DNA of 64,000 nucleotides from Promicromonospora umidemergens (GTDB taxonomy: Bacteria > Actinomycetota > Actinomycetes > Actinomycetales > Cellulomonadaceae), in the NCBI RefSeq assembly GCF_024171995.1, contig NZ_JAMTCT010000003.1, positions 310,001-374,000 on the forward strand. Direction: 5' to 3'. The position numbers and the translations under genes are program-made. Shown one piece after another: positions 19,768-23,819 of the stretch. Every line of letters begins with the position of its first letter. Position 1 is the first letter of the stretch. The notes beneath the pieces were generated by a model. The model worked only from the letters and a program-made list of their open reading frames with translations. It did not search any database and was not told the DNA's origin.

Positions 19768-20430
19768 TCAGCCGGCGGTGCCCGTGTAGCTGACCTCGAC
19801 GCGCCGGTTCTTGGCGCGGCCTGCCGGATTGTCCTTGCCGTCCGCCTCGTTCTCCGCGATCGGCTGCCGTTCACCATGTCCCTTGACCGTGAGCCGCAGG
19901 TCCGGCCGGGCGTCGCGGAGGACGTCGGCGACCGCCTGCGCCCGGCGCTTCGAGAGCTGGTCGTTGAAGGAGTCGTCCCCGATCGAGTCGGTATGGCCGT
20001 CGACGGCCACCTTCGCGTCCTGCGGAACCTCGTCGAGCAGGTCGCGGACCGCCGCGCCGGCGCTCTTCGTGACCCGGTGCTCGCCGAACTGGAAGAGCAG
20101 GTCTGACGTCAGGCGGACGGTGGTCTCCTCGCCCTCCTCGACCACTTCCTCCAGCGGGGTGATGGAGTCGTCGGGCCGCAGGTCCCAGGTGGCGTCCTCG
20201 GCCAGCAGGTCCCACCGGGCGTCGTCCGTCCGCAGGTCGAAGGTGGCGTCCGCGCGCATCGTGTCGGTGACCGGCACCGACTCGAGCCGCTCGAGATCCG
20301 CCTGCTGCTGCTCGGCGAGCTCCGCCATGAGCGTCGGGTCCGGAGACGGGGACGGCGACGCGGAGCTGTCCGCCCCGACCACACCACCGAGGGCGAGCAC
20401 CGCCGCCAGCGCCCCGGCCGCCAGGCTCAC
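19768..20430 (-). CDS. OmpA-domain envelope protein
   Basis: 220 residues from the GTG at 20430, which overlaps the upstream lipoprotein stop by 4 bp. The first 20 residues are hydrophobic with no basic n-region, so the protein is either membrane-anchored or has an atypical signal. A Ser/Pro linker and an acidic middle with repeated WDL-type units (about 65-95) follow. The OmpA peptidoglycan-binding domain occupies about 105-218 (LLFQFGEHRVTKSA, VAVDGHTDSIGDDSFNDQLSKRRA, AKNRRVEVSY). It should bind peptidoglycan outside the membrane. Coupling to a lipoprotein gene suggests a two-protein envelope complex. Confidence 0.82.
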   Translation of the reverse strand: MSLAAGALAAVLALGGVVGADSSASPSPSPDPTLMAELAEQQQADLERLESVPVTDTMRADATFDLRTDDARWDLLAEDATWDLRPDDSITPLEEVVEEGEETTVRLTSDLLFQFGEHRVTKSAGAAVRDLLDEVPQDAKVAVDGHTDSIGDDSFNDQLSKRRAQAVADVLRDARPDLRLTVKGHGERQPIAENEADGKDNPAGRAKNRRVEVSYTGTAG

Positions 20431-21074
20431 GACCCGCCGTCCAGGTAGGTCACCTCGGCCTGGGTGAAACCGGCCAGGCCCTCGATCGGGATCACGTCGA
20501 CGGACTTGGGCTTGCCCTCGGGAGCGGGCAGGGATGCCCAGCCCTCGACCGTGCCGTGGTTCGGGAACTTGGTGAAGACCTCGTCGCGCGCAGAGGTGAG
20601 CATCGAGGCCTTGCACCGGACAGCGTCCACGCCGCCGGCCTTCCACGAGCCATCCGTGCAGAACGGCCGGTAGACCTTCAGGTTGGTCGCGTCGATCACG
20701 CTGGCCGCTGTCCCCAGACCCATGTCGTAGTACGAGACGGCGGCGTCCGGCTCGGCGTCCTCGCTGTCCCAGCGCGTGGCCCACCGGACCGTCATCGTCT
20801 GTTCGGACACGTCGACGGACCGCAGCGTGAGCGTCAGCGTGCCGCCCGCACCAGAGTCGCCCGGGATGTCCGACGTCGTCTCGGCCATCGATCCGGTCAC
20901 CGTCCGAGCAGAACCCGTTTCCTCGACAGGAGCGGCCGCCTCGCCGCCCGCCGCGACGCCGTCCTCCGCCGACCCGCTTCCGGCCGGCTCGTCCCCGGGT
21001 GCGCCGGTGCAGGCGCTCAGCGCGAGCATCCCCGTCACCAGCAGTGCGACAACCCGACCCGACGTTCGCCTCAT
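20427..21074 (-). CDS. Putative lipoprotein of unknown function
   Basis: 215 residues from the ATG at 21074, which has an excellent AAGGAG site seven bases upstream; longer upstream frames were rejected on that basis. The signal peptide ends in a lipobox LSAC with lipidated Cys22. After an acidic Ala/Gly/Glu linker, about 120 residues of beta-rich sequence follow (TLTLTLRSVDVSEQTMTVRW) with two Cys that may pair. I do not recognise the domain. It is translationally coupled to the OmpA-domain gene. Confidence 0.78.
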   Translation of the reverse strand: MRRTSGRVVALLVTGMLALSACTGAPGDEPAGSGSAEDGVAAGGEAAAPVEETGSARTVTGSMAETTSDIPGDSGAGGTLTLTLRSVDVSEQTMTVRWATRWDSEDAEPDAAVSYYDMGLGTAASVIDATNLKVYRPFCTDGSWKAGGVDAVRCKASMLTSARDEVFTKFPNHGTVEGWASLPAPEGKPKSVDVIPIEGLAGFTQAEVTYLDGGS

Positions 21075-21160
21075 GCTTCTCCTTCTCGTGGACGTCGATC
21101 TCATCGAGATCGACCGAGGTGAACGTTCCACATCTCCAGGCCCCACGCACCGATATTTCG

Positions 21161-21176
21161 GGGGCACCTCTGCCCC
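21161..21176 (-). terminator. Probable ancestral terminator of the ABC exporter operon
   Basis: GGGGC and GCCCC arms (21161-21165, 21172-21176) lie about 15 bases beyond the displaced copy of the ABC gene 3' end at 21189-21217. This is where a terminator would sit if that copy was once the true end of the gene. Confidence 0.4.
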
Positions 21177-21188
21177 TGGACACCCTGA

Positions 21189-21217
21189 GCTATTCGTGCT
21201 GCCAGCTGCGCCAGAGC
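21189..21217. repeat. 29-bp direct repeat, left copy (duplicate of ABC gene 3' end)
   Basis: Identical over 29 bases to 22077-22105, which encodes the last residues and stop codon of the ABC transporter gene. This copy is detached from the gene. The two copies bound the DUF3800 unit in the manner of left and right attachment sites. Confidence 0.85.
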
Positions 21218-21254
21218 CCGGCGCCCAGCCGAGACATCGTCCAAGCCTCGTGTT

Positions 21255-21343
21255 AATCTCGGAGCAGCCTCCCCCCAAGGGGTGCGAGGAAGTGAAGCCG
21301 GGACCCCCTGATGGACGTCAGGAGCCCGGCATCGCGTTTTTCT
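21255..21343 (+). ncRNA. Candidate structured RNA beside the DUF3800 gene
   Basis: Read on the plus strand, this segment has a stem around CCCCAAGGGG. A second stem follows with outer arms GCCGGG (21297-21302) and CCCGGC (21325-21330) and inner arms CCTGA/TCAGG. Next comes ATCGCG and a run of five T. It lies directly beyond the 3' end of the DUF3800 gene. Rfam holds several DUF3800-associated RNA motifs found next to such genes in comparative genomics, and this could be one. The strand is uncertain: the T run favours plus, but the minus-strand transcript would be the gene's 3' UTR. A plain terminator is the simplest alternative. Confidence 0.45.
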
Positions 21344-21950
21344 AGAGAATTTCGACGTCGATCTCGCGTATCGCTGTTCCGAGGATCAGCCGTAGCGCGT
21401 CCACGCCACCAGACCGAGCGGCATTGACGATGCCTGCGACGGCGTCCGGAACCCACAGCATCGGTTCCTCATGGGGCAGAGCGAAGGCGACGCGGAGCGC
21501 AGCCGAGATCACGGTCTTGCTATAGAGGGCCGCCGCCATCGTCTTGTCCTTCTTGTTCAACGCTGCATGGCGCGACTCAAGATGGACCGCCGTCACTCCG
21601 ATCTGGTCAAGCTCAAAGAGCAAGCGCTCCATACACTGGCGTCTCGCGCGCTCCTGCCGCTTGGAATCCAGGGGCATCCCCACCACAACGATGCTCCATG
21701 CATCCAGCTCGGCGATGAGCGCTGCGATCTTCTCCTGACGAGCCTCGCTCTCATGACGCCAGTGGAGCCTCTTCGCCTTCCCGGAGCGCAAGGCGCGGAG
21801 ACTGTCGCGAGTCTCCTCGCATGCCCCCGGGTCGGCCACGACCGCGGCCATGAAGTACATCCCTGTCCCAGAGTCGGACGGGCCGCGCATCGACTCGTCC
21901 ACCCAGGCGTGCAGAGCGAAGTCGCCTGCGTCAGATGCTCCCCGGTTCAC
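21342..21950 (-). CDS. DUF3800 family protein
   Basis: 202 residues from the GTG at 21950, with AGGGGA about ten bases upstream. The N-terminus ALHAWVDESM carries the D-E-S motif (residues 18-20) that opens DUF3800 proteins, which are predicted to have an RNase H-like fold. Later conserved acidic and His residues (LHWRHES, VGMPLDSK, HLESRHAALNKKD) may complete an active site. By eye, base and codon use is clearly less GC-rich than in the neighbours. It is the only protein gene between the 29-bp repeats and lies on the same strand as the interrupted ABC operon. The biochemical function is unknown; family identification rests on motif recognition. Confidence 0.7.
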   Translation of the reverse strand: MNRGASDAGDFALHAWVDESMRGPSDSGTGMYFMAAVVADPGACEETRDSLRALRSGKAKRLHWRHESEARQEKIAALIAELDAWSIVVVGMPLDSKRQERARRQCMERLLFELDQIGVTAVHLESRHAALNKKDKTMAAALYSKTVISAALRVAFALPHEEPMLWVPDAVAGIVNAARSGGVDALRLILGTAIREIDVEIL

Positions 21951-21992
21951 TGGACGATAATCCCCTGGTAAACGCCCTCATACCAGTCCAGT
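21949..21992 (-). promoter_or_regulatory. Inverted repeat over the DUF3800 start codon
   Basis: ACTGGAC (21949-21955) and GTCCAGT (21986-21992) are exact reverse complements flanking the ribosome-binding site and touching the GTG start. An alternative inner pairing CTGGT/ACCAG overlaps the right arm. It could be an operator or a leader switch hiding the start. Confidence 0.4.
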
Positions 21993-21993
21993 C

Positions 21994-22015
21994 GCTATTG
22001 CATATACGCAACAGC
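21994..22015. repeat. Imperfect AT-rich palindrome near the right end of the DUF3800 unit
   Basis: GCTATTGC (21994-22001) and GCAACAGC (22008-22015) match in 7 of 8 positions around ATATAC. It is unusually AT-rich for this region. It may contain promoter elements for the DUF3800 gene or a recombinase arm site. Confidence 0.35.
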
Positions 22016-22076
22016 CAGCTTTGACCGACAGGCTCGTCCACGGCACCCAAGGCGGGCACCTATTACTGCCGGATCG

Positions 22077-22105
22077 GCTATTCGTGCTGCCAGCTGCGCC
22101 AGAGC
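22077..22105. repeat. 29-bp direct repeat, right copy (in ABC gene)
   Basis: The copy of the repeat that lies within the intact ABC transporter gene, covering the stop codon and the last codons. Its partner is 21189-21217. Confidence 0.85.
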
Positions 22106-23819
22106 TTCGCGTACTCGCCACCGGCCGCGACCAGCTCGTCGTGCGGGCCGATCTCGGTGATGCGGCCGCCGTCGAGCACCGCCACCCGGTCGGCGTCGTG
22201 CGCCGTGTGCAGGCGGTGCGCGATGGCCACCACCGTGCGCCCGTCGAGCACCGCGCTGAGCGAGCGCTCCAGGTGCCGGGCCGCTCGCGGGTCCAGCAGC
22301 GACGTCGCCTCGTCGAGGACGAGCGTGTGCGGGTCGAGCAGCACCAGCCGCGCGAGGGCCACCTGCTGCGCCTGCGCCGGAGTGAGCTTGTAGCCGCCCG
22401 AGCCGACCTCCGTGGCCAGGCCGTCGTCGAGCGCCTCGACCCAGCCGTGCGCGTCCACGGCCCGCAGCGCGTCCATCAGCTCGTCGTCGCTCGCTTCGAT
22501 CCTGGCGAGCCGCAGGTTCTCCGCCAACGATCCCACGAACACGTGGTGCTCCTGGGTCACGAGCGCCACGTGCTTGCGCAGGTCTTCCAGCGGCAGGTCG
22601 ACCAGCGGCACGCCACCCACCAACACCTCGCCCCCGGTGGGCGGGTGGATGCCGGCCAGCATGCGGCCGAGGGTCGACTTGCCGGATCCCGACGGACCGA
22701 CGATCGCCAGTCGCTCGCCCACCCTGAGGTCGAGGTCGATGCCGTGCAGCACGTCGGTGCCCGCCCGGTAGGCATAACGGACGTCGGTGCCGCGCACCTC
22801 TTCGTCAGCGGGCACGGCGTCGCTCGCCGTGCGGTCCATCGGCACCAGCCGGACGCCGATGATGCGGGACAACGACGTCGCGGCCACCTGGATCTCGTCC
22901 AGCCAGAAGATGAGCTCCCAGACGGGGCCCTGCAGCTGGTACGTGTACATGACGATCATGGCGACCATGCCGATGGTCACGGTGCCCTCGGAGGCCAGGA
23001 ACCCGCCCCAGACGAGTACCGAGATCGGCGCGAGGATGAAGGCGAAGTCCACTCCGGGGAACAGCACCGTCCGCAGGTTGAGCGTCCCGACCTCCGCCTC
23101 GAACGCCTCGTGCAGGTCGTCGTCGCCGCGCGTCGTGCGACGACGGCCGATCTTGAGCGCGTCGATCGTGCGCGCGCCCTCTACCGACTCGGTGACGGTG
23201 CCGTCGAGCCGGGCGTAGGCGGCGGACTCGCGCTGGTAGGCGGGGGTGGCTCGCTTCAGGTACCAGCGCGCGACCGCGACGAGCACCGGCACGCCCACGA
23301 ACATCCCGAGCGCCACCAGCGGCGACACGACCAGGCTGAACGCGATCGTCAGCACGAGCGTCACTACCGCGATAACCAGCCGTGGCACGCCGAAGCGCAC
23401 GGCGTTCTGGATGCGGTTGACGTCGCGGGTCGTGCGGGCGATCAGGTCACCGGTGCCCGCGGTCTCCACCGTCGACAGCGGCAGGGACGTGACCGTCTCG
23501 ACGAACTCCTCGCGCATGTCCGCGAACACCGTCTCGCCGAACACCATGGCGCGCCGCTGCGCGAACCGCGTGATCAGGGCCTGCAGCACCACCGCGGCGA
23601 CCGCGACGAGCACCAGGTTCCGCGCCACCTCCAGCGTGGTGCCCGCCGTGACGGCGTCGACGAGCCGGCCGAGCACGAACGGTCCCGCCAGGCCGGCCGT
23701 CGCGGCGACCGTGTTGGCCACCGTGATGACGACCAGGGGCGCCCGGTGCCGCCCGAGCATCTTTCGCGTGTACTGCCACGTGTCGGCCGCGTCGGCGATC
23801 GGCAGGATCTTTCCCGTGC

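Follow-up and report, generated by a model that had tools for sequence, protein, structure and literature searches.

A DUF3800-like protein–RNA gene pair probably inserted, with target-site duplication, at the 3' end of an ABC exporter gene in Promicromonospora

Structured RNA motifs that accompany DUF3800 genes, DUF3800-I of Rfam among them, were reportedly described by Weinberg in 2017. Genomic islands that use gene ends, like small non-autonomous elements, insert at the 3' ends of genes and are flanked by direct repeats. The locus considered here, L001, lies in a window of 64,000 nucleotides (nt), the whole stretch of DNA that was analysed, from the 6.6-Mb genome of Promicromonospora umidemergens (G000), and it resembles both: a gene for a distant DUF3800 protein stands next to a structured RNA gene, and this unit sits at the 3' end of an ABC exporter gene between two copies of a 29-bp direct repeat. 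It differs from the Rfam systems in that its RNA gene is convergent with the protein gene, is preceded by promoter-like sequence of its own and belongs to an insertion, and from the islands and small elements in that no common attachment (att) core, recombinase gene or terminal inverted repeats were found. As far as the accessible sections of the literature go, DUF3800 proteins are reported to have an RNase H fold (PMC10910872), and these proteins and their RNAs have been characterised by association only, also as CRISPR-locus accessories (PMC10910872; PMC12669027). The passages retrieved by our search of the open-licence literature on DUF3800 or ptaRNA1 do not describe the present arrangement. 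We consider it probable that a two-gene module entered the exporter gene at its 3' end and that the 29-bp repeat is a target-site duplication. An empty and a filled site, the repeat, a conserved gene pair, an insertion in a second genus and similar units at unrelated actinobacterial sites are directly established, and together these comparisons support insertion with duplication of a gene end.

The repeat was recovered by a repeat search as an exact match (29/29 bp) between positions 21189..21217 and 22077..22105, as the original prediction had claimed. It comprises the final codons and stop of the exporter gene (LWRSWQHE*), occurs at only these two sites in the whole genome when up to 3 mismatches are allowed, and is the sole exact repeat of at least 25 bp at a spacing of up to 2 kb in the window. 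The gene-side copy (22077..22105, - strand) ends the exporter gene, while the distal copy (21189..21217, - strand) is the same 3' end without its gene. The 859 bp between them (21218..22076) have a guanine-plus-cytosine content of 63.2%, compared with 70.7% and 71.4% in the 1-kb flanks, which agrees with the lower value read by eye. Enclosed are the protein gene (21342..21950, - strand) and the RNA gene (21262..21336, + strand); the end of the RNA gene abuts the stop of the protein gene, the two being convergent. What had been described as one DUF3800 gene beside a hairpin-rich segment is therefore only partly right: the gene is present, and the hairpin-rich segment is real, being a structured RNA gene on the + strand that makes the unit a pair of a nuclease-fold gene and an RNA.

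Evidence for insertion comes from the same genus, where the end of the exporter gene was compared in 12 other Promicromonospora genomes. The unit is missing from the site in 11 of these; in each the repeat is single, differing at 2-5 positions, and a search of the fetched flanks (about 1.5 kb, up to 8 mismatches) gave a second copy in none of the 11. Two of them, G003 and G012, have the lipoprotein and OmpA-like genes of G000 next to the site, and their sequence continues directly past the single copy, at the point where it restarts after the distal copy in G000; the G000 arrangement is thus the empty site with 859 bp and a further 29 bp added. The expectation of a relative with an empty site and a single copy was borne out, and the proposed insertion of an element of roughly 0.9 kb into a gene end corresponds to a unit of 0.86 kb. 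The hairpin past the distal copy (21161..21176, - strand), earlier described as placed like the exporter's original terminator, is native to the target and lies outside the unit, since a matching stretch comes straight after the single copy in G003 and G012. The distal copy carries the bases of G000's own exporter gene, including a CGC where 13/13 other ABC ends (12 from the genus, 1 from outside) have CAC or CAG; likewise G003 and G012 have GAG where G000 has GAA. It was therefore copied within the G000 lineage, or homogenised later. The lipoprotein and OmpA-like genes themselves (window 19768-21074), between the ABC and IclR genes, are at the site in 3/13 genomes, G000, G003 and G012, and this patchiness marks the ABC-IclR intergenic gap as a hot spot.

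Repeats of the same kind flank units elsewhere. We gathered 161 loci by protein or RNA similarity, among which some near-duplicates remain, and in 51 of them compared the 350 nt upstream of the gene with the 250 nt past the RNA; mismatched pairs of loci served as a control (99th percentile 13, maximum 24). Four clear repeats emerged: L001 (29/29, at the stop of the ABC exporter), L141 in Curtobacterium flaccumfaciens (37 bp with 2 differences, at the stop of a P-type ATPase, FTPLDRP*), L053 in G143 (43 bp with 4 differences, at the stop of MarR, RRVARG*) and L135, at the same place as L017 (15/15, at the stop of purU, VVFR*), the names of the target genes being read from sequence. The stop codon of the neighbouring gene lies inside each repeat, and the distal copy starts 44, 21, 43 and 36 nt past the RNA in L001, L141, L053 and L135, respectively. 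That other units with gene-end repeats might exist had also been anticipated, and L141, L053 and L135 are such cases. A second test, covering 179 RNA copies in the 161 loci with repeats within tandem units (L236, L218, L220, L139, L232, L240) set aside, returned the same three long cases and a weaker one, L204; the repeats of L204 (27/29 bp, within a cysteine synthase-like gene) and L212 were inspected and left out of the count. For L141, a congener provides a clean empty site: L141 1374-2908 and 3677-5575 align with 1-1535 and 1501-3399 of L310, in which one 35-bp stretch, present once, matches both ends of the insert. L141 is a case as clear as L001, and the two others are weaker. L310 is one of three other Curtobacterium genomes examined at this site; L311 lacks the unit and is diverged, and L312 has about 1.2 kb of other sequence there. 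No clean empty site was found for L053, whose near twin G162 holds an RNA-only unit in that position.

These repeats also bear on how the units arrived. The original prediction held that element-borne sequence had restored the gene, as integrative elements do; in such a scheme the 29 bp would be an att core used by a recombinase acting in trans. Repeats of 15-43 bp that contain a stop codon at gene 3' ends do resemble the attL and attR of elements that integrate at gene ends. The four repeats, however, are 15, 29, 37 and 43 bp long at different genes and have no word of more than 7 bases in common in any pair, and the orientation of the unit to its target gene is reversed in L141, where the gene end is on the RNA side rather than on the protein side as in L001, L053 and L135, so there is no fixed att polarity. 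As had been noted, the list of open reading frames holds no recombinase gene in the unit, though the rest of the genome was not searched for one acting in trans. A recombinase gene within the element, a constant core and a fixed polarity are thus all missing, and we regard integrase-type integration as unlikely. Target-site duplication fits better because the repeats are coreless and variable in length and the orientation flips. The two target strands would have been cleaved with a stagger of about 29 nt, after which the segment was joined between the ends and the gaps were repaired; of the two resulting copies, one would keep the exporter gene whole. With transposons and miniature inverted-repeat transposable elements the unit has in common the target-site duplication and the empty site, but not terminal inverted repeats: within 30 nt of their ends, the four inserts have exact inverted matches of at most 4-6 nt, and no inverted pairs with arms of at least 12 were found in 20500-22800. 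Since neither a recombinase gene nor terminal inverted repeats were found, the unit would depend for its movement on an enzyme acting in trans or on the nuclease of the module itself.

Similar units at different sites also occur in Arthrobacter, where L124/L127, L133, L140 and L125 are 77-86% identical between sites. The stretch in common starts 48-93 nt ahead of the matched start of the gene and ends 7-59 nt past the RNA. The flanks share nothing, except for downstream DNA common to L125 and L133 (392 bp of the flank tested, belonging to a 1265-bp match that is shifted in position on the contig). A preference for gene ends is suggestive only, because units landing within genes would not persist and a repeat is more readily noticed when it takes in a conserved gene end. 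Two further schemes were set aside. An integron cassette was ruled out on anatomy, with no search made. Retro-insertion of the kind made by long interspersed nuclear elements had been suggested by L017, which lacks the 5' part of the gene, and L015, which lacks the palindrome; since the moved segment includes promoters, the series at the purU site (L004, a full unit; L015; L017; L091, RNA alone) reads more simply as decay.

The RNA is a small structured species of about 75 nt in which two hairpins surround GGAAGUGA, followed by a run of U at 21337-21341 and preceded by a -10-like TAATCT (21254..21259, + strand). With a model built from 19 aligned RNAs, 36/37 loci of a GTDB scan (E<=1), all actinobacterial by title, proved to have the RNA past the gene and antisense to it; L155 had none. 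Across overlapping sets of genomes it matched in 41/221 at the level of the family (E<=0.01), in 38/396 at that of the order and in 40/394 at that of the class (both E<=1e-4). Covariation is strong: standard pairs fill 94.3% of the pair cells in 51 distinct sequences, and 13 of the 17 pairs change on both sides, a value that no shuffle reached (0/500), though the result gains from an alignment that had been fitted to the structure. The motif [TC]AnnnT precedes 133 of the 179 RNA copies, as against 29, 31 and 37 in shifted windows, and some loci with several copies have, by eye, -35 and -10 boxes before each. This promoter-like sequence lies between the 29-bp copy and the RNA body, and the idea that the copy is part of the RNA, as a guide, was rejected accordingly, no transcript having been seen. 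The protein gene adjoins the RNA at 121/161 loci and 40/161 have the RNA only (24 at 45 bits or more, 16 below); counted by copy, the protein neighbour is full for 110, partial for 19 and not recognised for 50. Protein remnants lie beside the RNA at L090 and L159. Two to five RNA copies, or entire protein-RNA units, stand in tandem at L139, L142, L143, L146, L151, L218, L232, L236 and L240.

The partner protein (202 amino acids) is predicted with confidence to adopt an RNase HII-like nuclease fold. It has 17% identity to its best RNase HII match and differs from that enzyme (type 2 RNase H) also in being paired with an RNA and part of an apparently mobile unit. In 75 sequences D18, E19 and E125 are at least 90% conserved and H63, R103, D135 and D169 are invariant; D18, E19, E125, D135 and D169 are candidate residues of an acidic active site. 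The DUF3800 label holds in part: 16/77 family members match PF12686 at E<=0.01 (best 4.2e-6), while the window protein has no match to it even at E<=10. A sequence search of the PDB returned a single match, to an acetyltransferase (E 0.38). Protein matches occur in 72 of 72,556 plasmid records (E<=1e-8), all below 60% identity, and the RNA scores 44.2, 41.1 and 21.7 bits in three fetched plasmid regions; phage records gave no match. Plasmid carriage fits an addictive or selfish role without proving it. Downstream of purU in G010 (L113), where other species have their units, there is what seems to be another DUF3800-like gene, the second and a distant one (VYVDESKAKGFLLVAV).

For the RNA, the nearest described counterpart may be ptaRNA1 (RF01811), the antitoxin RNA of a plasmid type I system. 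Rfam gave no above-threshold match for the unit RNA, and its DUF3800 RNA families were found neither in 20500-22800 (E<=1) nor in 14 further unit loci (E<=5). The PtaRNA1 model scores 30.7, 26.0 and 23.4 bits at L143, L141 and L142, below its threshold of 47, and in reverse our model gives 19.7 bits (E 0.00055) and 16.6 bits (E 0.003), each in 6 kb and on the correct strand, at two known ptaRNA1 loci; for comparison, an unrelated match reached 17.1 bits in 234 kb and doubtful whole-genome matches 26-30 bits. The two RNAs agree in size and in a layout of hairpin, GGAAGUG, hairpin and CGCG. The two known ptaRNA1 loci, however, overlap the start of a toxin gene of 75 or 77 amino acids, whereas the unit RNA sits past the stop of a gene of about 200. 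This weak, reciprocal likeness is suggestive and no proof of descent. As to function, we infer that protein and RNA form a selfish or addictive pair, toxin-antitoxin-like or an RNA-dependent nuclease: the RNA would restrain the predicted nuclease, or work with it by guiding it. An antitoxin-like RNA is favoured because of the RNAs without a protein gene, the RNA arrays, the plasmid carriage and the likeness to ptaRNA1. A compact moving pair of an RNase HII-fold protein and a ptaRNA1-resembling RNA that is also found alone has a testable function, and if it is a toxin-antitoxin pair, a nuclease of the RNase H type would there be combined with an RNA like ptaRNA1. We give little credence to a further idea, that DUF3800-RNA modules are self-mobile, the RNase HII-fold nuclease with its RNA cutting the two target strands near the 3' ends of genes, at a distance of 15-43 nt, installing the gene pair and leaving long target-site duplications with no known transposase, integrase or reverse transcriptase; if true, gene pairs would have a new means of spreading.

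Several observations weigh against insertion with target-site duplication and against the proposed role of the RNA. Clear repeats occur at only 3 or 4 of the 161 loci, most units having no flanking repeat, and the looser control of the second test, which included related loci (99.9th percentile 24), peaked at 37, over the case scores of 29-31. The -10 motif is rarer in protein-less RNA copies (28/50) than in the others (105/129), the RNA-only matches below 45 bits (16/40) may be false, and a strong RNA-only locus, L089, sits 181 nt from a contig end and is a putative case. PtaRNA1 gave no match in 11 of the 14 unit loci (E<=5) or for the window RNA (E<=1). In G150 (L251) the stretch inspected just past a MarR gene has two further copies of the gene's 3' end and no DUF3800 unit, showing that gene-end repeats can arise otherwise, and in G143 a small tandem repeat follows MarR. 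Both cases speak for local tandem duplication or slippage that is independent of the unit, which we nevertheless regard as very improbable: the copies flank whole or truncated units on both sides, the distal one 21-44 nt past the RNA in all four cases, and two cases have clean empty sites.

Also in this balance is G002, the remaining Promicromonospora genome, whose unit adjoins the same exporter gene in the same orientation with one repeat copy only. Its protein is 80% identical to that of the window unit, no lipoprotein or OmpA-like genes are there, and the spacers between the ABC stop and the palindrome (22013..22076 in the window; 65 nt compared) agree at only 16/65 positions; in a two-gene tree G000 and G002 are not sisters. 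Given G002, insertion at this site may date further back or have happened more than once: two separate events are one possibility, and the other is an old unit, passed on by descent or exchange, whose repeat has decayed in G002. This genome also lends itself to the proposal that the lipoprotein/OmpA segment arrived last in G000, bringing a second ABC end by homologous or illegitimate recombination. The order ABC-unit-IclR in G002, with neither segment nor second copy, and ABC-segment-IclR without a unit in G003 and G012 are in its favour, as is the patchiness of both segment and unit on the tree. The distal copy, however, has G000's bases and not those of G003 or G012, unless gene conversion followed, and L141 and L310 would be left unexplained; we hold this order of events to be improbable, and insertion of the two-gene module with target-site duplication remains our preferred reading.

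Upstream of the protein gene lies an operator-like palindrome, GTTGCGTATATGCAAT (21997..22012). Of the AT-rich palindromes that had been pointed out, the one at 21998-22011 is real (0/100 shuffles give one), and its sequence, TTGCGTATANGCAA, or a near form is present at L001, L003, L004, L005, L008, L009, L013, L014 and L099-L101. With up to 1 mismatch it occurs in 13/13 genus genomes searched, including those with no DUF3800-like match at E<=1e-10, which ruled it out as an element end; found with or without a unit, it looks like the operator of a host regulon. It stands upstream of the genes of two distant DUF3800-like subfamilies in Promicromonospora and also lies near a cytosine methyltransferase-like gene (L300; identity read from sequence). 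Long near-perfect palindromes with arms of about 20-25 nt are a separate feature of convergent gaps past purU and ABC genes (for example at L023, L025-L028, L106, L107, L110 and L116); some, such as GTCGGCAGAATGTCAGGTGGTCGG, resemble one another across sites and across species, and they are possibly a repeat family or bidirectional terminators.
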